Assembly (NCBI RefSeq): GCF_032854445.1
Contig: NC_088304.1
Span: 1,240,001-1,304,000 of the forward strand
Direction of reading: 5' to 3'
From: Liolophura sinensis
Lineage: Eukaryota; Mollusca; Polyplacophora; Chitonida; Chitonidae
Length of the DNA stretch: 64,000 nucleotides
Shown here: piece by piece, positions 1 to 60,279 of the stretch
Numbering within the stretch: position 1 is the stretch's first letter
Layout of the letters: every line of letters starts with the position of its first letter
Made by a program: the position numbers and the translations under genes
The notes under the pieces: model-generated
The model's database searches: none
The model's input: the letters and a program-made list of their open reading frames with translations, nothing else
Told to the model about the DNA's origin: nothing

Positions 1-3000
1 AAGTCGTACAGAGTGGTTTACTGATTCATGCTATCTTTTACTGAGGAGATCCAGTGGTCTCTGCCTGCCAGAAAGTCGTACAGAACGGTTTACTGATTCA
101 TGCTATCTTTTACTGAGGAGATCAAGTGGTCTCTGCCTGCCAGAAAGTCGTACAGAATGGTTTAGTGATTCATGCTATCTTTTACTGAGGAGATCAAGTG
201 GTCTCTGCCTGCCAGAAAGTCATACAGAATGGTTTAGTGATTCATGCTATCTTTTACTGAGGAGATCAAGTGGTCTCTGCCTACCAGAAAGTCATACAGA
301 ATGGTTTAGTGATTCATGCTATCTTTTACTGAGGAGATCCAGTGGTGTCTGCCTGCCAGAAAGTCGTACAGAATGGTTTAGTGATTCATGCTATCTTTTA
401 CTAAGGAGATCAAGTGGTCTCTGCCTGCCAGAAAGTCGTACAGAATGGTTTAGTGATTCATGCTATCTTTTACTGAGGAGATCCACTGGTTTCTGCCTGC
501 CAGAAAGTCATACAGAATGGTTTACTGATTCATGCTATCTTTTACTGAGGAGATCAAGTGGTCTCTGCCTGCCAGAAAGTCATACAGAATGGTTTAGTGA
601 TTCATGCTATCTTTTACTGAGGAGATCAAGTGGTCTCTGCCTACCAGAAAGTCATACAGAATGGTTTAGTGATTCATGCTATCTTTTACTGAGGAGATCC
701 AGTGGTGTCTGCCTGCCAGAAAGTCGTACAGAATGGTTTAGTGATTCATGCTATCTTTTACTAAGGAGATCAAGTGGTCTCTGCCTGCCAGAAAGTCGTA
801 CAGAATGGTTTAGTGATTCATGCTATCTTTTACTGAGGAGATCAAGTGGTCTCTGCCTGCCAGAAAGTCATACAGAATGGTTTAGTGATTCATGCTATCT
901 TTTACTAAGGAGATCAAGTGGTCTCTGCCTGCCAGAAAGTCATACAGAATGGTTTACTGATTCATGCTATCTTTTACTGAGGAGATCCACTGGTTTCTGC
1001 CTGCCAGAAAGTCATACAGAATGGTTTAGTGATTCATGCTATCTTTTACTGAGGAGATCAAGTGGTCTCTGCCTGCCAGAAAGTCATACAGAATGGTTTA
1101 GTGATTCATGCTATCTTTTACTAAGGAGATCAAGTGGTCTCTGCCTGCCAGAAAGTCATACAGAATGGTTTAGTGATTCATGCTATCTTTTACTGAGGAG
1201 ATCCAGTGGTCTCTGCCTACCAGAAAGTCGTACAGAATGGTTTAGTGATTCATGCTATCTTTTACTGAGGAGATCCAGTGGTCTCTGCCTGCCAGAAAGT
1301 CGTACAGAATGGTTTAGTGATTCATGCTATCTTTTACTGAGGAGCTCCAGTGGTCTCTGCCTGCCGGAAAGTCATACAGAATGGTTTAGTGATTCATGCT
1401 ATCTTTTACTGAGGAGATCCAGTGGTCTCTGCCTGCCAGAAAGTCGTGCAGAATGGTTTAGTGATTCATGCTATCTTTTACTGAGGAGATCCAGTGGTCT
1501 CTGCCTGCCAGAAAGTCGTGCAGAATGGTTTGGTGATTCATGGTATCTTTTACTGAGGAGATCCAGTGGTCTCTGCCTGCCAGAAAGTCATACAGAATGG
1601 TTTAGTGATTCATGGTATCTTTTACTGAGGAGATCCAGTGGTCTCTGCCTGCCAGAAAGTCGTACAGAATGGTTTAGTGATTCATGGTATCTTTTACTGA
1701 GGAGATCCAGTGGTCTCTGCCTGCCAGAAAGTCGTACAGAATGGTTTAGTGATTCATGGTATCTTTTACTGAGGAGATCCAGTGGTCTCTGCCTGCCAGA
1801 AAGTCATACAGAATGGTTTAGTGATTCATGGTATCTTTTACTGAGGAGATCCAGTGGTCTCTGCCTGCCAGAAAGTCGTACAGAATGGTTTAGTGATTCA
1901 TGCTATCTTTTACTGAGGAGATCCAGTGGTCTCTGCCTGCCAGAAAGTCGTACAGAATGGTTTAGTGATTCATGCTATCTTTTACTGAGGAGATCCAGTG
2001 GTCTCTGCCTGCCAGAAAGTCGTACAGAATGGTTTAGTGATTCATGCTATCTTTTACTAAGGAGATCCAGTGGTCTCTGCCTGCCAGAAAGTCGTACAGA
2101 ATGGTTTACTGATTCATGCTATCTTTTACTGAGGAGATCAAGTGGTCTCTGCCTGCCAGAAAGTCGTACAGAATGGTTTAGTGATTCATGCTATCTTTTA
2201 CTGAGGAGATCCAGTGGTCTCTGCCTGCCAGAAAGTCGTACAGAATGGTTTAGTGATTCATGCTATCTTTTACTGAGGAGATCAAGTGGTCTCTGCCTGC
2301 CAGAAAGTTGTACAGAATGGTTTACTGATTCATGCTATCTTTTACTAAGGAGATCCAGTGGTCTCTGCCTGCCAGAAAGTCGTACAGAATGGTTTACTGA
2401 TTCATGCTATCTTTTACTGAGGAGATCCAGTGATCTCTGCCTGCCAGAAAGTCGTACAGAATGGTTTAGTGATTCATGCTATCTTTTACTGAGGAGATCC
2501 AGTGGTCTCTGCCTGCCAGAAAGTCATACAGAATGGTTTACTGATTCATGCTATCTTTTACTCAGGAGATCCAGTGGTCTCTGCCTGCCAGAAAGTCGTA
2601 CAGAATGGTTTAGTGATTCATGCTATCTTTTACTGAGGAGATCCAGTGGTCTCTGCCTGCCAGAAAGTCGTACAGAATGGTTTACTGATTCATGCTATCT
2701 TTTACTGAGGAGATCCAGTGGTCTCTGCCTGCCAGAAAGTCGTACAGAATGGTTTAGTGATTCATGCTATCTTTTACTGAGGAGATCCAGTGGTCTCTGC
2801 CTGCCAGAAAGTCATACAGAATGGTTTAGTGATTCATGCTATCTTTTACTGAGGAGATCCAGTGGTCTCTGCCTGCCAGAAAGTCGTGCAGAATGGTTTA
2901 CTGATTCATGCTATCTTTTACTGAGGAGGTCAAGTGGTCTCTGCCTAATGGTTTAGTGATTCATGGTATCTTTTACTGAGGAGATCAAGTGGTCTCTGCC

Positions 3001-6000
3001 TGCCAGAAAGTCGTGCAGAATGGTTTAGTGATTCATGCTATCTTTTACTGAGAGATCCAGTGGTCTCTGCCTGCCAGAAAGTCATACAGAATGGTTTAGT
3101 GATTCATGCTATCTTTTACTGAGGAGATCAAGTGGTCTCTGCCTGCCAGAAAGTCATACAGAATGGTTTAGTGATTCATGCTATCTTTTACTGAGGAGAT
3201 CAAGTGGTCTCTGCCTGCCAGAAAGTCGTACAGAATGGTTTAGTGATTCATGCTATCTTTTACTGAGGAGATCAAGTGGTCTCTGCCTGCCAGAAAGTCA
3301 AACAGAATGGTTTAGTGATTCATGCTATCTTTTACTGAGGAGATCCACTGGTTTCTGCCTGCCAGAAAGTCATACAGAATGGTTTAGTGATTCATGCTAT
3401 CTTTTTCTGAGGAGATCCAGTGGTCTCTGCCTGCCAGAAAGTCGTACAGAATGGTTTAGTGATTCATGCTATCTTTTACTGAGGAGATCCAGTGGTCTCT
3501 GCCTGCCAGAAAGTCGTACAGAATGGTTTAGTGATTCATGCTATCTTTTACTGAGGAGATCCAGTGGTCTCTGCCTGCCAGAAAGTCGTACAGAACGGTT
3601 AACTGATTCATGCTATCTTTTACTGAGGAGATCCACTGGTTTCTGCCTGCCAGAAAGTCGTGCAGAATGGTTTACTGATTCATGCTATCTTTTACTGAGA
3701 GATCCAGTGGTCTCTGCCTGCCAGAAAGTCATACAGAATGGTTTAGTGATTCATGGTATCTTTTACTGAGGAGATCAAGTGGTCTCTGCCTGCCAGAAAG
3801 TCGTGCAGAATGGTTTAGTGATTCATGCTATCTTTTACTGAGAGATCCAGTGGTCTCTGCCTGCCAGAAAGTCATACAGAATGGTTTAGTGATTCATGCT
3901 ATCTTTTACTGAGGAGATCCAGTGGTCTCTGCCTGCCAGAAAGTCATACAGAATGGTTTAGTGATTCATGCTATCTTTTACTGAGGAGATCAAGTGGTCT
4001 CTGCCTGCCAGAAAGTCGTACAGAATGGTTTAGTGATTCATGCTATCTTTTACTGAGGAGATAAAGTGGTCTCTGCCTGCCAGAAAGTCGTACAGAATGG
4101 TTTAGTGATTCATGCTATCTTTTACTGAGGAGATCCACTGGTTTCTGCCTGCCAGAAAGTCATACAGAATGGTTTAGTGATTCATGCTATCTTTTTCTGA
4201 GGAGATCCAGTGGTCTCTGCCTGCCAGAAAGTCGTACAGAATGGTTTAGTGATTCATGCTATCTTTTACTGAGGAGATCCAGTGGTCTCTGCCTGCCAGA
4301 AAGTCGTACAGGATGGTTTAGTGATTCATGCTATCTTTTACTGAGGAGATCCAGTGGTCTCTGCCTGCCAGAAAGTCGTACAGAACGGTTAACTGATTCA
4401 TGCTATCTTTTACTGAGGAGATCCACTGGTTTCTGCCTGCCAGAAAGTCGTGCAGAATGGTTTACTGATTCATGCTATCTTTTACTGAGGAGATCCAGTG
4501 GTGTCTGGCTGCCAGAAAGTCGTACAGAATGGTTTAATGATTCATGCTATCTTTTACTAAGGAGATCAAGTGGTCTCTGCCTACCGAAATGTCGTACAGA
4601 ACGGTTTACTGATTCATGGTATCTTTTACTGAGGAGATCCACTGGTTTCTGCCTGCCAGAAAGTCATACAGAATGGTTTAGTGATTCATGCTATCTTTTA
4701 CTGAGGAGATCCAGTGGTCTCTGCCTGCCAGAAAGTCATACAGAATGGTTTAGTGATTCATGCTATCTTTTACTGAGGAGATCCAGTGGTCTCTGCCTGC
4801 CAGAAAGTCGTACAGAGTGGTTTAGTGATTCATGCTATCTTTTACTGAGGAGATCCAGTGGTCTCTGCATGCCAGAAAGTCGTACAGAGTGGTTTAGTGA
4901 TTCATGCTATCTTTTACTGAGGAGATCAAGTGGTCTCTGCCTGCTGGAATGTCGTACAGAATGGTTTACTGATTCATGCTATCTTTTACTGAGGAGATCC
5001 ACTGGTTTCTGCCTGCCAGAAGGTCATACAGAATGGTTTAGTGATTCATGCTATCTTTTACTGAGGAGATCAAGTGGTCTCTGCCTGCCAGAAAGTTGTA
5101 CAGAATGGTTTAGTGATTCATGCTATCTTTTACTCTTTAGATCAAGTGGTCTCTGCCTGCCAGAAAGTTGTACAGAATGGTTTACTGATTCATGCTATCT
5201 TTTACTGAGGAGATCAAGTGGTCTCTGCCTGCCAGAAAGTCGTACAGAATGGTTTACTGATTCATGGTATCTTCTACTGAGGAGATCCACTGGTTTCTGC
5301 CTGCCAGAAAGTCATACAGAATGGTTTACTGATTCATGCTATCTTTTACTGAGGAGATCAAGTGGTCTCTGCCTGCCAGAAAGTCATACAGAATGGTTTA
5401 GTGATTCATGCTATCTTTCACTGAGGAGATCAAGTGGTCTCTGCCTGCCGGAATGTCGTACAGAGTGGTTTAGTGATTCATGGTATCTTTTACTAAGGAG
5501 ATCCAGTGGTCTCTGCCTGCCAGAAAGTCGTACAGAATGGTTTAGTGATTCATGCTATCTTTTACTGAGGAGATCCAGTGGTCTCTGCCTGCCAGAAAGT
5601 CGTACAGAATGGTTTAGTGATTCATGCTATCTTTTACTGAGGAGATCCAGTTGTCTCTGCCTGCCAGAAAGTCGTACAGAATGGTTTAGTGATTCATGCT
5701 ATCTTTTACTGAGGAGATCCAGTGGTCTCTGTCTGCCAGAAAGTCGTACAGAATGGTTTAGTGATTCATGCTATCTTTTACTGAGGAGATCCAGTGGTCT
5801 CTGCCTGCCAGAAAGTCGTACAGAATGGTTTAGTGATTCATGCTATCTTTTACTGAGGAGATCAAGTGGTCTCTGCCTGCCAGAAAGTCATACAGAATGG
5901 TTTAGTGATTCATGCTATCTTTTACTGAGGAGATCCAGTGGTCTCTGCCTGCCAGAAAGTCATACAGAATGGTTTAGTGATTCATGCTATCTTTTACTGA

Positions 6001-9000
6001 GGAGATCCAGTGGTCTCTGCCTGCCAGAAAGTCGTACAGAATGGTTTACTGATTCATGCTATCTTTTACTGAGGAGATCCAGTGGTCTCTGCCTGCCAGA
6101 AAGTCATACAGAATGGTTTAGTGATTCATGGTATCTTTTACTGAGGAGATCCAGTGGTCTCTGCCTGCCAGAAAGTCGTACAGAATGGTTTAGTGATTCA
6201 TGCTATCTTTTACTGAGGAGATCCAGTGGTCTCTGCCTGCCAGAAAGTCGTACAGAATGGTTTAGTGATTCATGCTATCTTTTACTGAGAGATCCAGTGG
6301 TCTCTGCCTGCCAGAAAGTCGTACAGAATGGTTTAGCGATTCATGCTATCTTTTACTGAGGAGATCAAGTGGTCTCTGCCTGCCAGAAAGTCGTACAGAA
6401 CGGTTTACTGATTCATGCTATCTTTTACTCAGGAGATCCAGTGGTCTCTGCCTGCCAGAAAGTCATACAGAAGGGTTTAGTGATTCATGGTATCTTTTAC
6501 TGAGGAGATCCAGTGGTCTCTGCCTGCCAGAAAGTCGTACAGAATGGTTTAGTGATTCATGGTATCTTTTACTGAGGAGATCCAGTGGTCTCTGCCTGCC
6601 AGAAAGTCGTACAGAATGGTTTAGTGATTCATGGTATCTTTTACTGAGGAGATCCAGTGGTCTCTGCCTGCCAGAAAGTCGTACAGAATGGTTTAGTGAT
6701 TCATGCTATCTTTTACTGAGGAGATCCAGTGGTCTCTGCCTGCCAGAAAGTCGTACAGAATGGTTTAGTGATTCATGCTATCTTTTACTGAGGAGCTCCA
6801 GTGGTCTCTGCCTGCCAGAAAGTCATACAGAATGGTTTAGTGATTCATGCTATCTTTTACTGAGGAGATCCAGTGGTCTCTGCCTGCCAGAAAGTCGTAC
6901 AGAATGGTTTAGTGATTCATGGTATCTTTTACTGAGGAGATCCAGTGGTCTCTGCCTGCCAGAAAGTCATACAGAATGGTTTAGTGATTCATGGTATCTT
7001 TTACTGAGGAGATCCAGTGGTCTCTGCCTGCCAGAAAGTCGTACAGAATGGTTTACTGATTCATGCTATCTTTTACTGAGGAGATCCAGTGGTCTCTGCC
7101 TGCCAGAAAGTCGTACAGAATGGTTTACTGATTCATGCTATCTTTTACTGAGGAGATCCAGTGGTCTCTGCCTGCCAGAAAGTCGTACAGAATGGTTTAC
7201 TGATTCATGCTATCTTTTACTGAGGAGATCCAGTGGTCTCTGCCTGCCAGAAAGTCGTACAGAATGGTTTAGTGATTCATGCTATCTTTTACTGAGGAGA
7301 TCAAGTGGTCTCTGCCTGCCAGAAAGTCGTACAGAATGGTTTACTGATTCATGCTATCTTTTACTGAGGAGATCCAGTGATCTCTGCCTGCCAGAAAGTC
7401 GTACAGAATGGTTTAGTGATTCATGCTGTCTTTTACTCAGGAGATCCAGTGGTCTCTGCCTGCCAGAAAGTCATACAGAATGGTTTAGTGATTCATGCTA
7501 TCTTTTACTGAGGAGATCCAGTGGTCTCTGCCTGCCAGAAAGTCGTACAGAATGGTTTAGTGATTCATGCTATCTTTTACTGAGGAGATCCAGTGGTCTC
7601 TGCCTGCCAGAAAGTCGTACAGAATGGTTTAGTGATTCATGCTATCTTTTACTGAGGAGATCCAGTGGTCTCTGCCTGCCAGAAAGTCATACAGAATGGT
7701 TTAGTGATTCATGCTATCTTTTACTGAGGAGATCCAGTGGTCTCTGCCTGCCAGAAAGTCGTGCAGAATGGTTTACTGATTCATGCTATCTTTTACTGAG
7801 GAGATCAAGTGGTCTCTGCCTGCCAGAAAGTCATACAGAATGGTTTAGTGATTCATGGTATCTTTTACTGAGGAGATCAAGTGGTCTCTGCCTGCCAGAA
7901 AGTCGTGCAGAATGGTTTAGTGATTCATGCTATCTTTTACTGAGAGATCCAGTGGTCTCTGCCTGGCAGAAAGTCATACAGAATGGTTTAGTGATTCATG
8001 CTATCTTTTACTCAGGAGATCCAGTGGTCTCTGCCTGCCAGAAAGTCATACAGAATTGTTTAGTAATTCATGCTATCTTTTACTGAGGAGATCAAGTGGT
8101 CTCTGCCTGCCAGAAAGTCATACAGAACGGTTTACTGATTCATGCTATCTTTTACTGAGGAGATCCAGTGGTCTCTGCCTACCAGAAAGTCGTACAGAAT
8201 GGTTTACTGATTCATGCTATCTTTTACTGAGGAGATCCAGTGGTCTCTGCCTGCCAGAAAGTCATACAGAATGGTTTAGTGATTCATGCTATCTTTTACT
8301 GAGGAGATCAAGTGGTCTCTGCCTACCGAAATGTCGTACAGAACGGTTTACTGATTCATGCTATCTTTTACTGAGGAGATCCACTGGTTTCTGCCTGCCA
8401 GAAAGTCATACAGAATGGTTTAGTGATTCATGCTATCTTTTACTGAGGAGATCCACTGGTTTCTGCCTGCCAGAAAGTCGTACAGAATGGTTTAGTGATT
8501 CATGCTATCTTTTACTGAGGAGATCCAGTGGTGTCTGCCTGCCAGAAAGTCGTACAGAATGGTTTACTGATTCATGCTATCTTTTACTAAGGAGATCAAG
8601 TGGTCTCTGCCTACTGAAATGTCGTACAGAACGGTTTACTGATTCATGCTATCTTTTACTGAGGAGATCCACTGGTTTCTGCCTGCCAGAAAGTCATACA
8701 GAATGGTTTAGTGATTTATGCTATCTTTTACTGAGGAAATCCAGTGGTCTCTGCCTGCCAGAAAGTCATACAGAATGGTTTAGTGATTCATGCTATCTTT
8801 TACTGAGGAGATCCAGTGGTCTCTGCCTGCCAGAAAGTCGTACAGAGTGGTTTAGTGATTCATGCTATCTTTTACTGAGGAGATCCAGTGGTCTCTGCCT
8901 GCCAGAAAGTCGTACAGAGTGGTTTAGTGATTCATGCTATCTTTTACTGAGGAGATCAAGTGGTCTCTGCCTGCCGGAATGTCGTACAGAATGGTTTACT

Positions 9001-11960
9001 GATTCATGGTATCTTTTACTGTGGAGATCCACTGGTTTCTGCCTGCCAGAAGGTCATACAGAATGGTTTAGTGATTCATGCTATCTTTTACTGAGGAGAT
9101 CAAGTGGTCTCTGCCTGCCAGAAAGTTGTACAGAATGGTTTAGTGATTCATGCTATCTTTTACTCTTTAGATCAAGTGGTCTCTGCCTGCCAGAAAGTTG
9201 TACAGAATGGTTTACTGATTCATGCTATCTTTTACTGAGGAGATCAAGTGGTCTCTGCCTGCCAGAAAGTCGTACAGAATGGTTTACTGATTCATGGTAT
9301 CTTTTACCGAGGAGATCCACTGGTTTCTGCCTGCCAGAAAGTCATACAGAATGGTTTACTGATTCATGGTATCTTTTACTGAGGAGATCAAGTGGTCTCT
9401 GCCTGCCAGAAAGTCATACAGAATGGTTTAGTGATTCATGCTATCTTTCACTGAGGAGATCCAGTGGTCTCTGCCTGCCGGAATGTCGTACAGAGTGGTT
9501 TAGTGATTCATGGTATCTTTTACTAAGGAGATCCAGTGGTCTCTGCCTGCCAGAAGATCGTACAGAATGGTTTAGTGATTCATGCTATCTTTTACTGAGG
9601 AGATCAAGTGGTCTCCGCCTGCCAGAAAGTCGTACAGAACAGTTTACTGATTCATGCTATCTTTTACTAAGGAGATCAAGTGGTCTCCGCCTGCCAGAAA
9701 GTCGTACAGAACAGTTTACTGATTCATGGTATCTTTTACTGAGGAGATCAAGTGGTCTCTGCCTGCCAGAAAGTCATACAGAACAGTTTACTGATTCATG
9801 CTATCTTTTACTGAGGAGATCAAGTGGTCTCTGCCTGCCAGAAAGTCATACAGAACGCTTTACTGATTCATGCTATCTTTTACTGAGGAGATCAAGTGGT
9901 CTCTGCCTGCCAGAAAGTCGTACAGAACGGTTTACTGATTCATGCTATCTTTCACTGAGGAGATCAAGTGGTCTCTGCCTGCCGGAAAGCCGTACAGAAC
10001 GGTTTAGTGATTCATGCTATCTTTTACTAAGGAGATCAAGTGGTCTCTGCCTGCCAGAAAGCCGTACAGAACGGTTTACTGATTCATGCTATCTTTTACT
10101 GAGGAGATCAAGTGGTCTCTGCCTGCCGGAATGTCATACAGAACGGTTTAGTGATTCATGCTGTCTTTTACTAAGGAGATCCAGTGGTCTCCGCCTGCCA
10201 GAAAGTCGTACAGAATGGTTTACTGATTCATGCTATCTTTCACTGAGGAGATCAAGTGGTCTCTGCCTGCCAGAAAGTCGTACAGAATGGTTTACTGATT
10301 CATGCTATCTTTTACTGAGGAGATCAAGTGGTCTCTGCCTGCCAGAAAGTCGTACAGAATGGTTTACTGATTCATGGTATCTTTTACTGAGGAGATCCAG
10401 TGGTCTCTGCCTGCCAGAAAGTCGTACAGAGTGGTTTAGTGATTCATGCTATCTTTTACTGAGGAGATCAAGTGGTCTCTGCCTGCCAGAAAGTCGTACA
10501 GAATGGTTTAGTGATTCATGGTATCTTTTACTGAGGAGATCCAGTGGTCTCTGCCTGCCAGAAAGTCGTACAGAACAGTTTACTGATTCATGCTATCTTT
10601 TACTAAGGAGATCAAGTGGTCTCCGCCTGCAGGAATGTCGTACAGAGCGGTTTTAGTGATTCATGCTATCTTTTACTGAGGAGATCAAGTGGCCTCTGCC
10701 TGCCAGAAAGTCGTACAGAATGGTTTACTGATTCATGCTATCTTTCACTGAGGAGATCAAGTGGTCTCTGCCTTCCGGAATGTCGTACAGAATGGTTTAC
10801 TGATTCATGCTATCTTTTACTAAGGAGATTAAGTGGCCTCTGCCTGCCGGAATGTCGTACAGAATGGTTTAGTGATTCATGCTATCTTTTACTGAGGAGA
10901 TCAATTGGCCTCTGCCTGCCGGAATGTCGTACAGAACGGTTTACTGATTCATGCTATCTTTTACTGAGGAGATTAAGTGGTCTCTGCCTGCCGGAATGTC
11001 GTACAGAATGGTTTACTGATTCATGCTATCTTTTACTAAGGAGATTAAGTGGTCTCTGCCTGCCAGAAAGTCGTACAGAATGGTTTACTGATTCATGCTA
11101 TCTTTTACTGAGGAGATCAAGTGGTCTCTGCCTGCCAGAAAGTCGTACAGAATGGTTTACTGATTCATGCTATCTTTTACTGAGGAGATCAAGTGGTCTC
11201 TGCCTGCCGGAATGTCGTGCAGAATGGTTTACTGATTCATGCTATCTTTTACTGAGGAGATCAAGTGGTCTCTGCCTGCCAGAAAGTCGTACAGAATGGT
11301 TTACTGATTCATGCTATCTTTTACTAAGGAGATCAAGTGGTCTCCGCCTGCCGGAATGTCGTACAGAACGGTTTACTGATTCATGCTATCTTTTACTGAG
11401 GAGATTAAGTGGTCTCTGCCTGCCAGAAAGTCGTACAGAATGGTTTACTGATTCATGCTATCTTTTACTAAGGAGATCAAGTGGCCTCTGCCTGCCAGAA
11501 GGTCGTGCAGAATGGTTTACTGATTCATGCTATCTTTTACTCTGGAGATCAAGTGGTCTCTGCCTGCCGGAATGTCGTACAGAATGGTTTAGTGATTCAT
11601 GCTATCTTTTACTCAGGAGATCAAGTGGTCTCCGCCTGCCGGAATGTCGTGCAGAATGGTTTACTGATTCATGCTATGTTTTACTAAGGAGATCAAGTGG
11701 CCTCTGCCTGCCAGAAAGTCATACAGAATGGTTTACTGATTCATGCTATCTTTTACTAAGGAGATCAATTGGCCTCTGCCTGCCGGAATGTCGTACAGAA
11801 TGGTTTACTGATTCATGCTATCTTTTACTGAGGAGATCAAGTGGTCTCTGCCTGCCGGAATGTCGTGCAGAATGGTTTACTGATTCATGCTATCTTTTAC
11901 TAAGGAGATCAAGTGGTCTCTGCCTGCAGGAATGTCGTGCAGAATGGTTTACTGATTCAT
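1..11960. repeat. 72-bp satellite array, about 166 copies
   Basis: Head-to-tail units of 72 bp fill this stretch and run off the left edge. The unit carries the landmarks ctgcctgccagaaagtc and gattcatgctatcttttact. Units differ at a few recurrent sites: cgtac or catac, tttagtg or tttactg, atgctat or atggtat, and atccagtgg or atcaagtgg or atccactgg. Because 72 is a multiple of three, one plus-strand frame stays open for hundreds of codons. A one-base deletion (tgagagatcc for tgaggagatcc) recurs at about 3050, 3696, 3840, 6287 and 7942 and breaks that frame. Blocks are themselves duplicated: the rare variant tactctttagatc recurs 4,030 bp apart (about 5134 and 9164), and tctttttctgagg recurs 790 bp apart (about 3401 and 4191). 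The right end (about 10,600-11,960) is richer in the ggaatgtcg variant. No known satellite is recognised. Confidence 0.98.
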
Positions 11961-12284: not shown

Positions 12285-12403
12285 GATCAGTTTAATGAGT
12301 ACATGTTCCAGCAGGCCATCAAGTTGGAGTACAAGATACTACTGGAGAACAAGTCCAATTTGTCCTGTCCATTCTTCATCGGGGTTCAAACATGCACTTA
12401 ACG
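12285..12403 (+). CDS. PELO: pelota exon a, two single-base deletions
   Basis: It opens in frame with DQFNEYMFQQAIKLEYKIL. The frame is lost after ENKS: one base is missing near 12,357 and another near 12,366, after which VHSSSGFKHALN reads in a different frame. The tandem copies immediately downstream keep the continuous version NKSEFVLLHS, which supports the view that two bases are missing here. The donor is gtgagt at 12,404. Confidence 0.85.
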
Positions 12404-15400
12404 GTGAGTTGTCAGTCTGAACTCATTCTTGGTGTTACTTCTGGACAACAAGTCTGAGTTTGTCCTCCATTCTTCTCTAGTTTTAAACACAAACTTAACG
12501 GTGAGTTCTCAGGACTGATATGTGGTGTTTCTGCTGGACAACAAGGTCTGAGTTTGTCCTCCTCCATTCTTTCTCTAGTTTCAAACATGCTATTAACAGT
12601 GAGTTCTCAAGACTGATATGTGGTGTTACTGCTGGACAACAAGTCTGAGTTTGTCCTCCTCCATTCTTTCTCTAGTTTTCAAACATGCTATTAACAGTGA
12701 GTTCTCAGGACTGATATGTGGTGTTACTGCTGGACAACAAGTCTGAGTTTGTCCTCCTCCATTCTTTCTCTAGTTTCAAACATGCTATTAACAGTGAGTT
12801 CTCAGGACTGATATTGTGTTACTGCTGGGACAACAAGTCTGAGTTTGTCCTTCTCCATTCTTCCTCTAGTTTCAAACACACACTTAACGGTGAGTTCTCA
12901 GGACTGATATGTAGTGTTACTGCTGGACAACACGTCTGAGTTTGTCTTTCTCCATTCTTCCTCTAGTTTCAAACACACACTTAACAGTGAGTTCTCAGGA
13001 CTGATGCATGGTGTTACTGCTGGACAACAAGTCTGAGTTTGTCCTCCTCCATTCTTCCTCTAGTTTCAAACACGCTATTAACAGTGAGTTCTCAGGACTG
13101 ATATGTGGTGTTACTGCTGGACAACAAGTCTGAGTTTGTCCTCCTCCATTCTTTCTCTAGTTTCAAACATGCTATTAACAGTGAGTTCTCAAGACTGATA
13201 TGTGGTGTTACTGCTGGACAACAAGTCTGAGTTTGTCCTCCTCCATTCTTTCTCTAGTTTCAAACACGCTATTAACAGTGAGTTCTCAAGACTGATATGT
13301 GGTGTTACTGCTGCACAACAAGTCTGAGTTTGTCCTCCTCCATTCTTTCTCTAGTTTCAAACATGCTATTAACAGTGAGTTCTCAAGACTGATATGTGGT
13401 GTTACTGCTGGACAACAAGTCTGAGTTTGTCCTCCTCCATTCTTTCTCTAATTTCAAACATTCACTTAACATTGAGCTGATGCGTGGTGTTATTGCTGGA
13501 CAACAAGTCTGTCTAAATCTTTGTACCCATCTCACTGGACTGACTGGAGTGTATGAGCCAGGAGTTTTGATCAAGAGTGTCTATGTGATTGTGTGTTTGA
13601 GTGATGTAGTAATCACATATGTGTACTTATCTGCCGCTTGATGTAAGCACGTTTAATGTTTTGATGGATTTATACCACCACTTTGTGTGCTGAAAATTTA
13701 ACATTGCTATCAGTATTATTTTGCTATCATAATTGTTATTATATCACGACAGTGTTGGTATATTCTAGATATATCACATAGTTTTATGCTGCCTCAAAGG
13801 GACGCCATTCCAGACGTACAGATATTTCATCCCGACTCACTGGTAATATACTGTCACTTGTCTACCAGCACTAGGCTTATTCATTTATTCTGCTTGCCAG
13901 ACTTTCAAGAAATTATTAAGTCAGCCAATTTCAAAATCTTTAAAGGCATAATCCGGCTCAGGATTAATCCCACTATTCCCACCACGGCAAAACGTCTTGC
14001 CCAGATGGTTGTCCTTCATCAGTGTACTGTTATAAGATTTTATGATAGGTATTTTTCATGAAGTGATCAAAGTGAAAACTGATGCCATTTTTCTTTGGAC
14101 TCACAGAAGTGCTGTCCGATCCAGCTGTCACATCAAAACTGGCAGACACGAAAGCAGCAGGAGAAGTGCGAGCTTTGGATGACTTCTACAGATGTTACAG
14201 AATGATCCTAATAGGGCTTTCTATGGGTGAGAGTGCCATGATCCAGTTATAGTCCTGGGCCACTTTCAGAAAGCTTAAATCGACTTTTCTGATCTTTTCT
14301 TGTAATTCTTGTCCCTAAATACTATGGCACGTCAGCCTACATGTAGGTAACATCTTTTACATAAAAAACTTTATGTTAAAAGAAATATGACTTGTTAAGT
14401 TTTGTGAATATGTATCCAGTGAAAACACTAACACAAACAGGACATGATCAGACTTTCTAATCTTACCTGTATACTGTAACATAGGTGTCTGAAAAAAGTC
14501 TCGCAAAAGCTTATGTAGAGTGGATGAAACAACGAACAGCTGAGCAGTTGGGAAGATGTTCCTGATGGAAAGTTTTCATTTTGCCTTTTGAACAAGGCGA
14601 GACATATGATCGTTAATTATGTCGAGAAAAGTTGCCTAACATTTACGCTATAAATCCCCCAACCTTTTCAGATATGAAGAGCAACTTTCAGTACAGTTCA
14701 TACACCTTTATAATGTGAATCTGCTTGAATAAACACCTTGAAAACATGCAAGAAGATTGAAGAATTACAGTATGACGAGCCACATAATACTGTAGGACTA
14801 TTTTTACCAGTAGTGACAAAAGAGTTGCAACTCCAAGCTCCCCTTTTGCAATGTTAAATCTGACTGTTTTATCTTGGTTTTCTCTTTCAGTATCAAGGCA
14901 GTAGAGAGGGCAGCAGAGTTACAGGGTATAGAAACCTTGATGGTTACAGATGAGCTTTTCAGGTAACTAAATGGCCTTCAGTATCACTTGTTTATTTATT
15001 TTATCAGTGTGTTGAGTGGCACTGGAGAAGAGTCAAATTCTACATTTTTTAGTTGTAAAATCCAGCCTGATAACTTGGGTTTCCTACCTCCTAACATGGG
15101 CCATTCCCTTAACCTGGGGCCTGTGTGCAAAACGACACGAAATCGTATAAGGCGACATCACAGGTAAAGCCGTCATTTGTGTTATTAAGGCTACTTGTTT
15201 AACCACAATATTTAGTTTATAACAGTATTTAATTTAATTTATTTATTTGATTGGTTTTTTATGCCCTGGTCAAGAATATTTCACTTATACAACGGTAGCA
15301 AGCATTATGATGGGAGGAACCCGGGAAGAGCCCAAAGGAAACCAACCATCATTCGCACGTTGCTGCAGACCTTCCCATGTATGACCGGAGAGGGAAGCAT

Positions 15401-15973
15401 CACAAGTTGGACTTGACTGTCTGGAACCACATTGATGAGAGGGTTCAGAATTATTGCTCTGCACTGACCCTGTTTAATTTAAAGACACAGAGCATGGTTA
15501 CTACATATTTGCATGCATAAAATTAGACCATTTTTGTAAATGTGTCGATTGTTTTTGACGGTGTTTTAATCTCCAGGTCAGCTGTTGTGGAGAAGAGGAA
15601 GCGGTATGTGAAGCTGGTGGACACGGTCAAAGATCTGGGGAGGAGATGTGAAAATATTCTCCAGCCTCCATGTCTCAGGAGAGCGTAAGTTATTTTACAT
15701 CACAGTTTTGTGGACAACCTTAGTAATTGGATGAAAATAATGCATCAGATTTTTGGTTAGCCATATACGCTTACATGTGAGTTTTGTTGAATGAAATTTG
15801 TTATCATTTAACAGTTAAGTGCAAAAAATGAAAAACACAATCAAATTAAATAACTGAGTGAATGGTGTGTTTGTATGTAAACAGAGCTGACTCAGCTGTC
15901 TGGCGTGGCGGCCATTTTGAGGTTCCCCATCCCTGATGAGGATGAAGATCAGGATTCGGAGGAGGAAAACTGA
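12285..15973 (+). CDS. PELO: pelota (Dom34 family), last five exons, 5' end outside window
   Basis: Five exons encode the C-terminal part of pelota, the eRF1-like factor that works with Hbs1 to release ribosomes stalled on mRNA (no-go decay). Exons: 12,285-12,403; 14,107-14,226; 14,891-14,962; 15,577-15,684; 15,885-15,973. Recognisable motifs in order are QFNEYMFQQAIK (end of the central eRF1-like domain), then from the C-terminal domain KLADTKAAGEV, ALDDFY, AFYG, TLMVTDELFR, IFSSLHVSGE, LSGVAAILRFP and an acidic tail ending in SEEEN. All introns are GT-AG and split codons rejoin correctly (for example G|AA, GG|T, AG|G, C|AG). However, exons 1, 2 and 4 have lengths out of phase by two, one and one bases, so the literal reading frame is broken four times. 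Either this copy is decaying or the assembly contains small indels. Retained introns rule out a processed pseudogene. The N-terminal exons must lie left of the 72-bp satellite. Confidence 0.88.
12404..13512 (+). repeat. pelota exon/intron-junction minisatellite, about 12 copies of about 96 bp
   Basis: Each unit contains about 67 bp matching the 3' end of the preceding pelota exon (tggacaacaagtctgagttt to aaacatgctattaaca), followed by the donor GTGAGT and about 25 bp of intron (tctcaggactgatatgtggt). Period is 96-97 bp (for example ctgctgg at 13,115 and 13,211). The exon-derived part still reads LLDNKSEFVLLHS then SFKHAIN without interruption. A new acceptor-like tract, ttctttctctag, has arisen inside the exonic part of most units. 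The last unit (about 13,490) is truncated. The array lies wholly within the pelota intron. Confidence 0.9.
13513..14106 (+). other. pelota intron, unique part
   Basis: AT-rich intronic sequence up to the acceptor ctcacag at 14,100-14,106. A 91-codon open frame at 13,786-14,061 has no recognisable domain or good splice context and is not called as a gene. Confidence 0.5.
14107..14226 (+). CDS. PELO: pelota exon b, one single-base deletion
   Basis: It reads EVLSDPAVTSKLADTKAAGEV and then RALDDFY, the most conserved start of the pelota C-terminal domain. After tacag one A appears to be missing (tacagatg where tacagaatg is expected). One frame over, MLQNDPNRAFYG continues to the donor gtgaga at 14,227. 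The 120-nt length is out of phase with its neighbours by exactly one base, which agrees. Confidence 0.87.
14227..14890 (+). other. pelota intron with dispersed repeat fragment
   Basis: Intron between exons b and c. At 14,723-14,770 it carries cttgaataaacacctt and gaagaattacag. The same pair of landmarks occurs at about 49,278-49,324, so a dispersed repeat is present. Confidence 0.5.
14891..14962 (+). CDS. PELO: pelota exon c
   Basis: An intact 72-nt exon between tctctttcag and gtaact. It encodes IKAVERAAELQGIETLMVT followed by DELFR, the helix and strand around the conserved DELFR motif of the pelota C-terminal domain. Confidence 0.9.
14963..15576 (+). other. pelota intron with antisense dispersed repeat
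   Basis: Intron between exons c and d. Most of 15,240-15,405 is a minus-orientation copy of the AAATA-tailed dispersed repeat described elsewhere in this window. The remainder shows nothing. Confidence 0.5.
15240..15405 (-). mobile_element. AAATA-tailed dispersed repeat, minus copy
   Basis: It reads in reverse: the tail complement atttatttgattgg, then gaatatttcacttatac, then attatgatgggaggaaccc and ctgcagaccttcccat. These are the complements of the cgtgggaaggtctg, ccataatg and gtgaaatattc landmarks of the plus-oriented copies. It is SINE- or MITE-like, non-autonomous, with no coding capacity. Confidence 0.7.
15577..15684 (+). CDS. PELO: pelota exon d, one single-base insertion
   Basis: It begins SAVVEKRKRYVKLVDTVKDLG in frame with DELFR. 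After ctgggg one extra A shifts the frame. One frame over, GDVKIFSSLHVSGE continues to the donor gtaagt at 15,685. The length (108 nt) is one base more than phase requires. Confidence 0.87.
15885..15973 (+). CDS. PELO: pelota last coding exon
   Basis: After the acceptor aaacag the exon reads QLTQLSGVAAILRFPIPDED and continues with an acidic tail EDQDSEEEN and TGA. The first two bases complete the Q codon of SGEQL split by the intron. The acidic C-terminus is typical of animal pelota proteins. Confidence 0.92.
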
Positions 15974-16660: not shown

Positions 16661-17392
16661 TTCAGTGTCAACACTGAGTGTGTAACAGTAGCTGCTTCTG
16701 TCAACACTGAATGTGTAACATTAGCTGCCTCTGTATCAACACTGAGTGTGGAACATTAGCTGCCTCTGTGTCAATACTGAGTGTGGAACATTAGCTGCCT
16801 CTGTGTCAACACTGAGTGTGTAGCGTTAGCTGCCTCTGTGTCAACACTAAGTGTGTAACATTAGCTGCCTCAGTGTCAACACTGAGTGTGTAACATTAGC
16901 TGCCTCAGTGTCAACACTGAGTGTGGAACATTAGCTGCCTCAGTGTCAACACTGAGTGTGGAACATTAGCCACCTCTGTCAACACTGAGTGTGTAACATT
17001 AGCTGCCTCTGTGTCAACACTGAGCGTGTAACATTAGCTGTCTCTGTGTCAACACTGAGTGTGGAACATAAGCTGCCTCAGTGTCAACACTGAGTGTGTA
17101 ACATTAGCTGCCTCTGTCAACACTGAGTGTGTAACATTAGCTGCCTCTGTCAACACTGAGTGTGGAACATTAGCTGCCTCTGTGTCAACACTGAGTGTGG
17201 AACATTAGCTGCCTCTGTGTCAACACTGAGTGTGGAACATTAGCTGCCTCTGTGTCGACACTGAGTGTGGAACATTAGCTGCCTCTGTATCAACACTGAG
17301 TGTGGAACATTAGCTGCCTCTGTGTCAACACTGAGTGTGTAACATTAGCTGCCTCTGTGTCAACACTGAGTGTGGAACATTAGCTGCCTCTG
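16661..17392. repeat. 35-bp minisatellite, about 21 copies
   Basis: The unit is tgtgtcaacactgagtgtgg followed by aacattagctgcctc (for example starts at 17,181 and 17,216). Some units lack tgtg and are 31 bp. Each contains ACACT-G-AGTGT, a short interrupted palindrome. Confidence 0.95.
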
Positions 17393-19483: not shown

Positions 19484-20092
19484 TCGTCGAATACCAATGG
19501 TGGGTTTTCCCCGGTTTCGTGGGTTATGTTCGATTCACAATACAGTCACTCCCCTCCTCCCCCCCCCCCCCCCACACACACACATCGGTTTCCACCAACA
19601 ACCATGATGCTGGCCGCCGTCGTAGTAGTGAAATATTCTTTAGTATGGCATAAAACGCCGATCTGCATTCGTTGTGAGTTCAAGTGAGGTTAAAGTCCAG
19701 CTCCTGCGTGGGAAGGTCTGCCGGCAATCCTGGATTGTCATGGGTTATGTGGGCCCCCCTCACCCCCCCCCCCCCCCCCACACACACACACCGGTTTCCA
19801 CCAACAACCATAATGCTGGCCGCCGTCCTATTTAATGAAATATTCTTTAGTGTGGCGTAAAACGCCGATCTGCATTCGTTGTGAGTTCAAGTGAGGTTAA
19901 AGTCCAGCTCCTGCGTGGGAAGGTCTGCCAGCAATCCTGGATGTCCGTGGGATATATCGGATTCCACCACCCCTGCCCCCACACCGGTTTCCAGCCACTA
20001 TAATGCTGGCCGCCTTCGGCAATATTCTGAGTACACCGTAAACCACCAATCAAATAAATAAATAAAACGTCGATCAAATCAATAAATAAAAT
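19484..20092 (+). mobile_element. three head-to-tail copies of the AAATA-tailed dispersed repeat
   Basis: The landmark ggtttcca occurs at 19,587, 19,793 and 19,986, each followed by aatgctggccgcc and then gaaatattctttagt or aatattctgagt. The first two copies continue with the cgtaaaacgccgatc motif, and the third with gtaaaccaccaatc and an AAATA tail. The copies are separated by gtgagttcaagtgaggtt and cgtgggaaggtctgcc. Two copies carry a long poly-C and (CA)n run, a likely place for assembly length error. Confidence 0.8.
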
Positions 20093-39900: not shown

Positions 39901-42900
39901 GTCATGTCCAGCATGTCAGAATCACTGTTGTCACATCAAAACATACCATTCACCAACTCTAATGCACCAGTATCATCACAGACCTGGAGAAAGGGTATGG
40001 GGACTAAGGGGGATAACTCTCAGAGCAGGCATGTAAAGGGGCACAACTCAGACTGGATGGGTCACAGCCAAGGAACACAGTTCAGTCCAAGTATTTTAGG
40101 CCCACAACATGTATCTCAGATGCAACAGAGCTTTAAAACCAGCCTGCCAAATGAGGGGTCAGGTCTGTCCTTTTCCCTGTCTTTGTAATATGAATTTCCT
40201 TATGTATTCTGATTGGCAAATGTCATTGTGTATGGAAGACTAGGATATTAAAGTGTGATTTTGACAACAGGTAGTAACCAATGATCAGCCAATTAAACCC
40301 TTTATGTGCACAATGCTTGGTTCTATACCATGGTTTTTAATCATTCAAAGTCCTAAAAAAAAAAAAAAAAAAAAACCTATAAAAAATCTACTAACAGTAC
40401 AGTTCAAATTTAGCAATATTCTTAATTCAGTTTTGGAGCCCCCTAGTCTTAAAAGCAGATGTAACCAAGCAACAGTTTGTGCTCAAATGCTCAGATTCCT
40501 GATGGTGTGAGTGAAAATTAGATTTATACGTATGTACCAGTTTGCATGTTTTGAGTCAAATGCTCAGATTCCTGATGGTCTAAAGTGAAAATTAGATTTA
40601 TACGTATGTACCAGTTTGCGTGTTTTGAGTCAAATGCTCAGATTCCTGATGGTCTAAAGTGAAAATTAGATTTATACGTATGTACCAGTTTGCATGTTTT
40701 GAGTCAAATGCCCAGATTCCTGATGGTGTGAGTGAAAATTAGATTTATACGTATGTACCAGTTTGCATGTTTTGAGTCAAATGCTGAGATTCCTGATGGT
40801 GTGAGTGAAAATTAGATTTATATTTTAAGAAAAAATCAACGAAAAAGCCATAATTTACTGTATTTTTATCATAAAGTTTGGCGCGTAAAGATGCACTTTC
40901 AAAAGCATGCAATTTTAAATTCTACTTAAATTTTCTGATAAGAAGTTAATTAAACTTAAGTGAATCAATCAGAATGTGTCACATGAAAAATGCTTAACTT
41001 TAAGTGGAATACAGTATATTAGTTATCATCTTAATTAGCAGAAGTATATGTGTTAATTATATTAGAGGATTTCATTGAGCTGATTTTATTATGTTTCCAG
41101 TTTTGTCAGGGTTTAATGAAGAAGAAGTAGACTTGTTGCACAAATGTCAAAACAGATTGAAGGACATCAAAATCCTACTGAATACTTCAAGTAACAACCA
41201 TCAGGTGATCTATAAGTTCTAAGAAGACAAGTTTTCCCCATTTTGGGTATAATATTCTGGGGGAAGTTCTCTTGCTAATTATTGGTTAATTATCACACTG
41301 TTGATGGAATTAATTACTTATGTCCAGTGTCTGAGAATTATTGACACTTTCCCCAAATCTCAATGTTTGTAGGGCCTTGCCACCATAGTGTCATTTTCCT
41401 TTTATTCTTCCTTTGTTTAAAAATTCATGAGATTTGCTTGTCTAAAATGCTTCAGTGGAAAAGTTTGAGAAAATGTTACGATTGTGATTTTGAACATCTT
41501 CCAGTTTATAACCAGCTTGTTTCGCTAATGAAGTCAGCTAGTGGAAAAAATTTCAGCTGATTTTAATAGAAAATTTTCTCTTCCCTGCCTCTGGTACCCT
41601 TGTGTTATGATAAATTTCCCATCCTAGATTTGATATGGAATTATAGTGTGTCTTTTATTTTAATCACTGTTAATATTGCTTTCACTTTTGAACAGGATGT
41701 GATGGTAAAGATAGGAGAGACACAAGGCCTTATTATTCAGGGACTTGAGACACTACATTCTTCAAATGGTGTTATAAGTTCAGGTGAGAGTCTCAAATTT
41801 TTATGGACATTCAAATATTGTTTGATACAGTTCCCCCCCCCCCCACCAAAAAAAAATTAAAGGCTCATTAAATTAAAGTTAAATAGGACTTAGTGTGTAG
41901 TGCATTCTGGGACAGGGTTTTTCAGATTCACGTGCTTACATTGTTACTGTGGTAATCGTGTCTTTTGGTTGTACATGAAATTCTCTTGATACTAATTTTC
42001 ACCCATATGGCATTTGTCACGTGTGTGAAAGTTCACCACTTAGTCATCAAAGGCCGATGGTTTACTCTCGGCACGCCAGTCTCGTGCATCTGACCACCAC
42101 TGTATACATGTAAGTCTTGAGTATGACATGAAACAAACAATAAAGTACATAAATTAGTGTGCCATTCTTGGAATAAACGCACATGTACATATATCTTCGG
42201 GCCAGTATGGACATGTACATATATCCTCGGGCCAGTATGGACATGTACATATATCCTCGGGCCAGTATGCGCATGTTCATGTATCCTCAGGCCAGTATGG
42301 ACATGTACATGTATCCTCGGGCCAGTATGGACATGTACATGTATCATCGGGCCAGTATGAACATGTACATATATCCTCGGGCCAGTATGAACATGTACAT
42401 ATGTCCTCGGGCCAGTATGAACATGTACATATATCCTCGGGCCAGTATGGACATGTTCATATATCCTCAGGCCATTTTGAACATGTACATGTATCCTCGA
42501 GCCAGTATGCACATGTTCATATATCCTTGGGCCAGTATGCGCATGTTCATGTATCCTCAGGCCAGTATGGACATGTACATGTATCCTCGAGCCAGTATGC
42601 ACATGTTCATATATCCTTGGGCCAGTATGCGCATGTACATGTATCCTCGGGCCAGTATGAACATGTACATGTATCCTCGGGCCAGTATGGACATGTACAT
42701 GTATCATCGGGCCAGTATGGACATGTATATGTATCCTCAGGCCATTTTGAACATGTACATGTATCCTCGAGCCAGTATGCACATGTTCATATATCCTTGG
42801 GCCAGTATGCGCATGTTCATGTATCCTCAGGCCAGTATGAACATGTACATGTATCCTCAGGCCAGTATGAACATGTACATGTATCCTCAGGCCAGTATGA

Positions 42901-45900
42901 ACATGTACATGTATCCTCGGGCCAGTATGGACATGTACATGTATCCTCGGGCCAGTATGGACATGTATATGTATCCTCGGGCCAGTATGAACATGTACAT
43001 GTATCCTCAGGCCAGTATGCACATGTTCATGTATCCTCAGGCCAGTATGCACATGTTCATGTATCCTCAGGCCAGTATGGACATGTACATGTATCCTCGA
43101 GCCAGTATGCACATGTTCATATATCCTTGGGCCAGTATGCGCATGTTCATGTATCCTCAGGCCAGTATGAACATGTACATGTATCCTCAGGCCAGTATGA
43201 ACATGTACACGTATCCTCGGGCCAGTATGAACATGTACATGTATCCTCGGGCCAGTATGAACATGTACATGTATCCTCGGGCCAGTATGAACATGTACAT
43301 GTATCATCGGGCCAGTATGAACATGTACACGTATCCTCGAGCCAGTGTGTACATGTACATGTATCCTCGAGCCAGTATGAACATGTACATGTATCCTCGA
43401 GCCGGTATGAACATGTACATGTATCATCGGGCCAGTATGAAAAAGATACCTATATCCTCGGGCCATTTTGAACATGTACATGTATCCTCGAGCCAGTATG
43501 AACATGTACATATATCCTCAGGCCAGTATGGACATGTACATGTATCCTCGGGCCAGTATGGACATGTTCATATAACCTCAGGCCAGTATGGACATGTTCA
43601 TATATCCTCGGGCCAGTATGGACATGTTCATATATCCTCGGGCCAGTATGAACATGTACATATATCCTCGGGCCAGTATGGACATGTACATATATCCTCG
43701 GGCCAGTATGCGCATGTTCATGTATCCTCAGGCCAGTATGAACATGTACATGTATCCTCAGGCCAGTATGAACATGTACATGTATCCTCAGGCCAGTATG
43801 AACATGTACATGTATCCTCAGGCCAGTATGAACATGTACATATATCCTCAGGCCAGTATGGACATGTACATGTATCCTCGGGCCAGTATGGACATGTTCA
43901 TATAACCTCAGGCCAGTATGGACATGTACATGTATCATCGGGCCAGTATGGACATGTATATGTATCCTCAGGCCATTTTGAACATGTACATGTATCCTCG
44001 AGCCAGTATGCACATGTTCATATATCCTTGGGCCAGTATGCGCATGTTCATGTATCCTCAGGCCAGTATGAACATGTACATGTATCCTCAGGCCAGTATG
44101 AACATGTACATGTATCCTCAGGCCAGTATGAACATGTACATGTATCCTCGGGCCAGTATGGACATGTACATGTATCCTCGGGCCAGTATGGACATGTATA
44201 TGTATCCTCGGGCCAGTATGAACATGTACATGTATCCTCAGGCCAGTATGCACATGTTCATGTATCCTCAGGCCAGTATGCACATGTTCATGTATCCTCA
44301 GGCCAGTATGAACATGTACATGTATCCTCAGGCCAGTATGAACATGTACACGTATCCTCGGGCCAGTATGAACATGTACATGTATCCTCGGGCCAGTATG
44401 AACATGTACATGTATCCTCGGGCCAGTATGAACATGTACATGTATCCTCGAGCCAGTATGAACATGTACACGTATCCTCGAGCCAGTGTGTACATGTACA
44501 TGTATCCTCGAGCCAGTATGAACATGTACATGTATCCTCGAGCCGGTATGAACATGTACATGTATCATCGGGCCAGTATGAAAAAGATACCTATATCCTC
44601 GGGCCATTTTGAACATGTACATGTATCCTCGAGCCAGTATGAACATGTACATATATCCTCAGGCCAGTATGGACATGTACATGTATCCCCGGGCCAGTAT
44701 GGACATGTATATGTATCCTCGGGCCATTTTGAACATGTACATGTATCCTCGAGCCAGTATGCACATGTTCATGTATCCTTTTTCACTTTGAATCGATGAC
44801 AGCCAGCATAATAGTGGGAGGTAACCAGTGGTACAAAACATGTTAAGATTTACACATACATTAATGTGTGTATAAAGCTGGTGAGGTGCTAAGATTAATG
44901 TCCTGTAATGGTCTTACTCCTCCAGGCAAAAACCTGACCCGTGATGTAGGTATATCAAGAGTAACGTAGCTTTAAGTTTGTGGTAAAAGACTTCAATAAG
45001 TAAATGAATCATATACAACAAGGGTTAATTTCTGTAAGGTCTAGGTGTTGAAGCAGAGATGAGGAAACTGAAGAATCTATTGTCAACCTTTTTGTCATTC
45101 TTTTATTTACAGACTGGAAAACTCGTTTTGAAACTTTAAAGGGACATCTGGGTCAAATCCGACAAGCTCATGATGTCAAACGAGAGCAACTGGCATTACA
45201 GGTCAAACAGAGAGGTCAAACCAAAGACAAGAGACAAAAAATTCACAAAGAGCTATTGTCACTGAGCATGCAACAAAAGTCTCTCTTGAATCTTTTCCAA
45301 AAACAACAAGACATCAACAAGCTCATGAAATCCTGTATTCAGACAGCTCAGTCCAGTGATTTATCACAGCAGAAGACTTTGAGTTCAAGGTCATCACCAG
45401 TGTCAGACCCAAGGTCATCACCAAGGTCACATTCAAATTCTAGGTCAGTACCAAGGTCAAGGTCATCTTTGACAAAATCACCACTAACTTTAAGTGGATC
45501 TAGCAAATCAAGTCCGTCAGTTACGAAATCAGCTCAGAATGAAAAACTGCCTAATGAAGATTTAAAGAAGAAGAGAGAGGAAGAAAGTCAAGCTGAATGG
45601 AACACAATATCAGCATCAACAACTGACATGACTGCCTCAAAATTGGGAGACAAAGAAAAGACATTTAGCAGAGGATTTGACAGTGAGACACAGCCACTTG
45701 CCTCAGAGACAAGAAATTGGGTTCATGTCCGATTGTAGCTCAGGTTTAAAAACTACTTCTGGGACTCCAGCAGATCTTGATACAACTGCTGTTAAACGCA
45801 TGGAGAATGTTAAAAAAATCCATGGTGGTGACTGGTGTGGGGTTGAAGAGGAAGACGGCTGGGTTAGAGGCAGAGGGACAACAAGACACAAAACCTCCAC

Positions 45901-59424: not shown

Positions 59425-60279
59425 TGCGGATCGAATGTTCAAACAAGAGCCAGGTTAAAGTAAGATAGTATCCAGTCACAGACGTGGTTTCATACAACTA
59501 CCAATAGCTGTTCAAATCACCACGACTGTTACTGTCCAAACATAAGTTTTGGTTAATTATCATGACAAAATCATGGTGACTCAACACATGGATGGCATCA
59601 GTGACCAAAACTACTGGTCAGTCGTATCATGTTGGCTTCAACTGTCCAGAACGATATTGGGTAAAAGTATGACTAGTAGAATTTGTCCAAGGCTTGCTGA
59701 TGATAATGTCACTTTGGGAGCGTGCTGAAGTGATCTAAGCAGTGTAATGACCAGTATAAGATGTGATCAGTTGTCATCTGGTCATGCTGGTTCCAGGCCG
59801 CCAAAGTAGATCTGTAGACAGTCAGCTGGCATATATCTGCAGTGGAAACAGGCCTCTAGTTAGTATGGCTTAGTGGTATTTCATTTATAAATAGTTCAGG
59901 TAAAATCACAAAGTTTCTTTATGGACACCAATTTCTGATTTATTTTTACAAATGTTTTCATGTACATTCTAACAATGTAACTTTGTGATGTTACTCTGTC
60001 AACTTGTAAGTGCCTTTAAGGAACAAAGTTCAGGTAACATCGGAATTTACTGAATTCAAGAGCAGCATTCTTCATGCTGGATCATTTTGACCAGTAAAAT
60101 CAAACTTTTTGAATTAAATATTGAAGCAATTATGATTGTCAATCATACATCGACTACATACAGTCAGGAGGTCTGTGTGTTTGATTTATTTGCATGGATT
60201 ATTTGAAAGTAATAACTTAAACAAAAGAGCTACATGCACAAAATGTGGCAGAGTGTATTGATATACATTGTACTATAAA
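59425..60279. other. 5' flank of the RD3-like gene
   Basis: No further coding exon is evident. It should contain the promoter and 5' untranslated region of the minus-strand RD3-like gene. No specific element was recognised. Confidence 0.35.

Follow-up and report, generated by a model that had tools for sequence, protein, structure and literature searches.

Does a splice junction that has been copied about a dozen times in tandem change how a gene is spliced, or do the copies simply leave with the intron that holds them? The question is raised by the pelota gene of Liolophura sinensis, whose exon 8 is followed by repeated copies of its own end. A stretch of 64,000 nucleotides containing the locus (the window, to whose first letter all positions refer) was analysed together with the assembly it comes from (609 Mb in 632 contigs); the window is eukaryotic by gene structure.

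The pelota gene and the array behind exon 8

Pelota lies on the + strand, with exons 8–12 inside the window and exons 1–7 upstream of it; the exon that holds the ATG, also upstream, is counted as exon 1. The features considered below are as follows.

12285..12403, + strand: pelota exon 8; acceptor AG ends at 12284, donor at 12404; one-base losses near 12358 and 12366
12337..13512, + strand: 97-bp tandem array; each unit holds the exon 8 end, the donor and about 28 bp of intron; original, 11 copies and a stub
12404..14106, + strand: pelota intron 8, host of the array; donor ACG/GTGAGT; acceptor ACTCACAG, branch motif CTGAT
12456..13354, + strand: ten acceptor-like TCTAG tracts, ending at 12480, 12578, 12675, 12773, 12869, 12966, 13063, 13160, 13257 and 13354
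12501..13380, + strand: ten copied GTGAGT donors, at 12501, 12599, 12697, 12794, 12890, 12987, 13084, 13181, 13278 and 13375
14107..14226, + strand: pelota exon 9; short by one base near 14192
14891..14962, + strand: pelota exon 10; intact frame
15577..15684, + strand: pelota exon 11; one surplus base near 15637–15640
15885..15973, + strand: pelota exon 12 including the stop codon; intact frame; weak acceptor (2.38 bits)

Each of the 12 pelota exons was matched by a piece in tblastn with a human pelota query, exon 1 at only E 1.1, and GT and AG stand at the ends of all 11 introns. With exon boundaries chosen by us, exons 1–7 comprise 642 nt, or 214 open conserved codons, whose frame continues into exon 8. 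When the frame breaks treated below are bridged, the C-terminal part matches human pelota (PDB 5lzw) with E 9.1e-65 and 103/167 identical residues. The protein is conserved along its whole length; 17 of the 79 sites identical between human and fission yeast differ in it. A 169-aa C-terminal pelota query gave 14 matches in the assembly, all at this locus, six of them to exon pieces and eight to copies in the array, and TIGR00111 gave two weak matches below the cut-off, both to upstream exons of the same gene. A second pelota locus was thus not found in the assembly with these two queries, in searches that score the best candidates only, and a second intact pelota gene elsewhere was rejected. 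Pfam searches of ten pieces placed eRF1_3 just under the cut-off for one pelota piece and only RD3 above it; a search of the window with Rfam returned nothing at gathering thresholds.

The array was delimited by TRF at 12337–13476 (period 97, 11.8 copies, 91% matches, score 1748) and continues by eye to about 13512 as a stub. Each unit consists of the last ~67 bases of exon 8, GTGAGT and the start of intron 8; in the aligned units, about 69 columns are exon-derived and 28 intron-derived. An earlier note on this DNA had reported about a dozen tandem copies of the exon end with its donor and some intron, produced by amplification of the junction, and both the TRF result and the unit alignment bear this description out; the array itself is more than a chance pattern. 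Unit size (97 bp × 11.8) and content (exon end, donor and intron start) are those of a junction-spanning minisatellite, and the array originates from the amplified exon 8/intron 8 junction of pelota. Units U2–U11 are near-identical (pairwise identity 0.87–1.00) and the edge copy U1 is divergent (0.73–0.76 to all others), the pattern of a homogenised minisatellite. When the array DNA was searched against the 609-Mb assembly, by a method that skips very common words, it matched once, at the array itself, and dispersal through the genome was rejected accordingly.

Other observations were made in the window. An open frame of 218 aa on the minus strand at 58801–59454 encodes an RD3 domain that is almost complete (Pfam PF14473, E 2.5e-27); in mammals, this family is associated with retinal degeneration. 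At 45052–46546, long open frames follow one another with changes of register and may form a single gene; the three pieces tried showed no Pfam match over the cut-off. Two ~207-bp copies followed by a tail lie at 19551–20091, with motifs that we take to resemble molluscan SINE ends.

Splice-like sites and reading frame in the copies

GTGAGT is intact at 11 positions, from the real donor at 12404 to 13375, and the 12th junction reads TTGAGC. The earlier note had regarded these donors as nearly equivalent, which fails at the base before the junction: among the ten copied donors, G precedes GTGAGT only at 12501 and 12890, and A does so in the other eight. Sites were scored with splice matrices and branch rules of human values, the matrices being not very sensitive. 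By this matrix, ACG/GTGAGT scores 10.67 bits and is found in 3 of the 11 donors (12404, 12501 and 12890); ACA/GTGAGT, found in the remaining eight, scores 6.75 bits and takes rank 88 among the GT sites. Two copied donors therefore score like the real one and eight are weaker. The real donor ranks 5 of 4,066 GT sites, lies nearest to the exon and is joint best in the array. Although GTGAGT is invariant over the 11 units compared, this says little, because the units were cut at GTGAGT, the 12th junction was left out and 11 of the 97 six-column windows are likewise invariant. Dual-specific AG/GT sites were considered and rejected, since the junctions read AACG/GTGAGT or AACA/GTGAGT and the acceptor TCTAG is separate. 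Across exons 1–7, real pelota donors range from −0.01 (exon 4) to 10.56 bits by the same matrix. The exon 4 donor, which keeps the frame (upstream of the window, L004 7229), reads AG/GTCTCT and at −0.01 bits falls far under the other pelota donors.

A pyrimidine tract ending in TCTAG is present in 10 of the 11 copies and absent from exon 8; the 11th copy has TCTAA (ending at 13451). The new acceptor-like tract that the earlier note described in most copies is thus confirmed. Its AG is derived, since a glycine codon of exon 8, GGG (glycine in human and fission yeast as well), reads AGT in the copies. The copied acceptors score 9.47–10.53 bits, and the real acceptors of exons 8–12 score 12.79, 8.24, 10.09, 6.75 and 2.38 bits (exons 2–7, 3.65 to 13.54), all with the human matrix. 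All ten copied acceptors outscore those of exons 9, 11 and 12, and nine of the ten that of exon 10; among the five real acceptors in the window, only that of exon 8 is higher. A branch motif, defined as YTNAY located 15–60 bases upstream of the AG with no AG between, was found for 0/10 copied acceptors versus 4/5 real pelota acceptors in the window; this test is passed by 929 of the 4,110 AG sites of the window and failed by the real acceptor of exon 12. From copied acceptor to next donor, the putative pseudo-exon measures 20 nt in nine of ten copies and 21 nt in one, so that the 20-nt pseudo-exon proposed for every unit holds for these nine and not for the 21-nt copy or the copy with TCTAA. 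The stretches from donor to acceptor are ~77 nt long (e.g., 12404–12480).

The copies had also been said to keep an uninterrupted pelota-like frame, which was not confirmed. Seven of the 12 exonic copies have an open frame in the right register; the frame is broken in copies 0–3 and 5, which fall in the same stretch as a cluster of indels, and exon 8 itself is broken as assembled. The unit length is not divisible by 3. Across 12285–13512, the three frames contain 26, 18 and 18 stops. In the frame of the pelota C-terminal part, use of any copied donor in place of 12404 leads to a stop after five further codons, and a continuous coding extension through the array was rejected on these grounds. 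Exon extension cannot therefore vary the protein and can only reduce the correct message; the variable exon extension suggested earlier is unsupported by the sequence. Inclusion of the first 20-nt pseudo-exon shifts the frame and leads to a stop in exon 9. What survives of the earlier interpretation is the origin of the array and its repeated splice-like motifs, and what the sequence does not bear out is the dozen equivalent donors together with the variable extension.

Frame breaks in exons 8, 9 and 11

Measured against conserved codons, the assembled pelota gene carries four frame-breaking 1-base indels (two bases missing in exon 8, one missing in exon 9 and one extra in exon 11), and exon 8 has a stop just before its end; exons 1–7, 10 and 12 are open. 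All four are compatible, by eye, with a one-base change in a run of 2–4 identical bases. Between 12357 and 15640, exons 8, 9 and 11 together with the first copies of the array show an unusual density of 1-base indels. Private 1-base indels were compared with those in 19 other arrays (period at least 25, copies at least 8, matches at least 88%; from the 72-bp array of pelota intron 7 only the first 6,501 bases were used), where 14 were counted in 30,624 bases. Units U2–U11 contain 5 in 971 bases (Fisher 2.2e-4), confined to U2, U3 and U5, and exons 8–12 contain 4 in 507 coding bases (Fisher 1.8e-4); exons 1–7 have 0 in 642 coding bases (Fisher 0.038 versus exons 8–12). The stricter count of 5 in 971 was preferred to the whole-array count of 9 in 1,140, which includes exon 8 and the edge copy. 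Private substitutions were not raised in step (indel:substitution 5:11 versus 14:228, Fisher 0.003). Two adjacent losses in U5 can be aligned as one 2-base gap, and without them the count is 3 in 971, with Fisher 0.014 for the rate and 0.056 for the indel:substitution ratio; two other short arrays have comparable indel rates (2 in 323 and 2 in 558 bases).

These data suggest a locally poor consensus and not a dead gene; poor consensus was judged the likelier of the two because of the local indel excess and the failure of both pelota queries to find a second locus. If the locus were a decaying pseudogene, splicing at the array would be irrelevant. The four frame breaks would fit such a gene, as would the exon 4 donor and exon 12 acceptor, weak by the human matrix, and the 17 altered sites among the 79 are compatible with relaxed constraint without being decisive. 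Decay is nevertheless improbable given the 214 open conserved codons of exons 1–7, the intact GT and AG of all 11 introns, the 103 residues shared with human pelota and the private indels that are raised in the adjoining array too, which points to consensus error. Exon 8 compared with the copies gave pN/pS of 0.21–0.36 (20 hand-aligned codons in four comparisons, the two indel codons omitted), indicating that exon 8 remained coding through much of the period after the duplication. The same indel excess (5 in 971 and 4 in 507 versus 14 in 30,624) might mean that the length or arrangement of the array is itself misassembled, but this is scarcely credible: the shared substitutions are patterned and the edge copy is divergent, as in true minisatellites, and arrays of ~1.2 kb are short for long reads.

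Repeat background, splicing roles and known systems

Arrays with a period of at least 20 and at least 3 copies were counted in 20 samples of 10 kb, at places picked by hand and not at random. They cover 33,497 of the 200,000 sampled bases (16.7%), with at least one array in 18/20 samples, and 45.7% of the window itself. A minisatellite that spans a junction is therefore to be expected in this genome. By rough estimate, 42 arrays per 200 kb would correspond to about 128,000 arrays genome-wide; if ~350,000 exon ends and ~55-bp founders are assumed, blind placement would put about 3% of these arrays across an exon end. The 42 sampled arrays and the 19 in the window (61 arrays, 122 array-strands) were then compared for splice-like sites, using thresholds of 6.7 bits for donors and 9.4 bits for acceptors that were set just under the scores of the pelota array, so that the pairing contrast is a post hoc one. 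A donor-like site occurs in half or more of the units in 21/122 array-strands, an acceptor-like site in 1/122 and both in 1/122, the last being the pelota array. Donors in arrays are thus ordinary and a strong acceptor is rare.

Three further arrays of the window were noted. A 72-bp array of about 166 copies (1–11960, + strand; also found by TRF with period 216) takes up the greater part of pelota intron 7 and contains 97 acceptor-like sites of at least 7 bits. A 35-bp array of 21 copies at 16665–17392 follows closely on the pelota stop codon and may lie within the 3′ UTR or close to it. In a 74-bp array at 40483–40822, three of five units have GGTGTGAGTG and two have GGTCTAAAGTG, and donor-like sites vary between copies.

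The array is probably an intronic minisatellite that arose by tandem duplication of the junction, is removed with intron 8 and is a bystander to splicing; it resembles normal repeat expansion in a genome rich in repeats and not a new splicing device. It would have begun when a ~97-bp segment, lying by chance across the exon 8/intron 8 junction, was duplicated in tandem, and we infer that expansion and homogenisation followed by slippage or unequal exchange, the processes to which this genome owes its many minisatellites. The donors in the copies would be inherited from the real junction, and TCTAG would have arisen in the founding copy through a few substitutions, in a part of the exon that was already rich in pyrimidines. 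Between donors of equal strength, the one closest to the exon would normally be expected to prevail; splicing would thus most likely join 12404 to exon 9 and the array would leave inside intron 8, and a copied site, if used now and then, would yield a frameshifted or truncated transcript bound for decay. Against the bystander reading stands the position of pelota as the sole array-strand of 122 with both strong sites, which a pure bystander need not be.

This donor–acceptor pairing, obtained with post hoc thresholds, is the one feature that keeps a bolder reading alive, in which the paired sites would generate 20-nt frameshifting micro-exons, and longer arrays would send more pelota transcripts to decay and so tune the dose. 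The eleven GTGAGT donors up to 13375 and the ten acceptors, stronger than those of exons 9, 11 and 12, would supply such a sink, and for the human CBS junction VNTR more repeats are said to accompany lower activity (PMC5188458). It is unlikely all the same, as the AG-free branch motif is absent in all ten copied acceptors and eight of the ten copied donors carry the weaker −1 A. Exons of 20 nt are, moreover, very short for recognition. The stronger form, a sink of variable length in which each 97-bp copy adds one poison acceptor–donor pair and the size of the array governs what share of pelota mRNA is frameshifted and destroyed, is more doubtful still; if true, it would place a possible feedback, via surveillance itself, in a gene of ribosome rescue and mRNA surveillance. 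It is equally hard to see the array as an intermediate in intron birth, with a donor and an acceptor in each unit letting the spliceosome remove pieces of ~77 nt. Introns born from tandem repeats have been described (PMC2812944, PMC10809524), as has the origin of an intron from a junction duplication in potato (PMC4974935), but the pelota copies are already intronic, and a new intron would matter only if a pseudo-exon were kept, whose 20 nt shift the frame.

The pelota array offers a clear example from nature of junction multiplication, about a dozen copies of one splice junction that have gained an acceptor, on which long-read cDNA could measure how the spliceosome ranks near-identical adjacent donors. 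It also serves as a warning that, in minisatellite-rich genomes, such arrays together with nearby consensus errors can mislead models of conserved genes. Lievers 2001 reportedly treats the CBS VNTR and Zhuo 2007 the origin of introns from tandem arrays. Among the papers listed in a literature search light on subscription papers, no pelota junction array was apparent from title or start of abstract.

The nearest relative is the human CBS 31-bp VNTR, c.1444_1467+7(16_21), which is located at the exon 13/intron 13 boundary in 16–21 copies (PMC2630376), a position also given in PMC5188458 and PMC1395315; it is polymorphic, and more repeats go with lower activity according to the review PMC5188458. 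Like the CBS VNTR, whose name implies 24 exonic and 7 intronic bases, the pelota unit spans an exon end and an intron start. Unlike it, the pelota unit measures 97 bp instead of 31 and contains a separate acceptor, none being mentioned for the CBS unit in the parts of these sources drawn on here; moreover, polymorphism and an effect on activity are reported for CBS, whereas the pelota array is known from the sequence of one assembly. PMC10604255 deals with other VNTRs. Internal tandem repeats at exon–intron boundaries in human segmental duplications are described as a possible source of both alternative splicing and novel introns (PMC2812944); those belong to recently duplicated paralogues and have transcript support, whereas the pelota array sits in the intron of a single gene and is a genomic observation. 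Repeat units with splice sites are also found in the tandem repeats of UBC and VCX3A, whose splice sites are dual-specific; in human, 792 introns lie within 262 tandem repeats (PMC10809524). In dual-specific sites, one AGGT acts as both donor and acceptor, whereas in pelota GTGAGT and TCTAG are separate, ~20 nt apart, in a unit whose length is not a multiple of 3. In CBS 844ins68 (PMC2630376) and potato RdRp (PMC4974935), an intron/exon junction segment is duplicated and splice sites are added; according to these accounts, they are single duplications of an intron-to-exon junction, in contrast to the dozen copies of an exon-to-intron junction in pelota. Junction-spanning minisatellites are thus known, and the pelota array adds to them a larger unit and a separate, derived acceptor.
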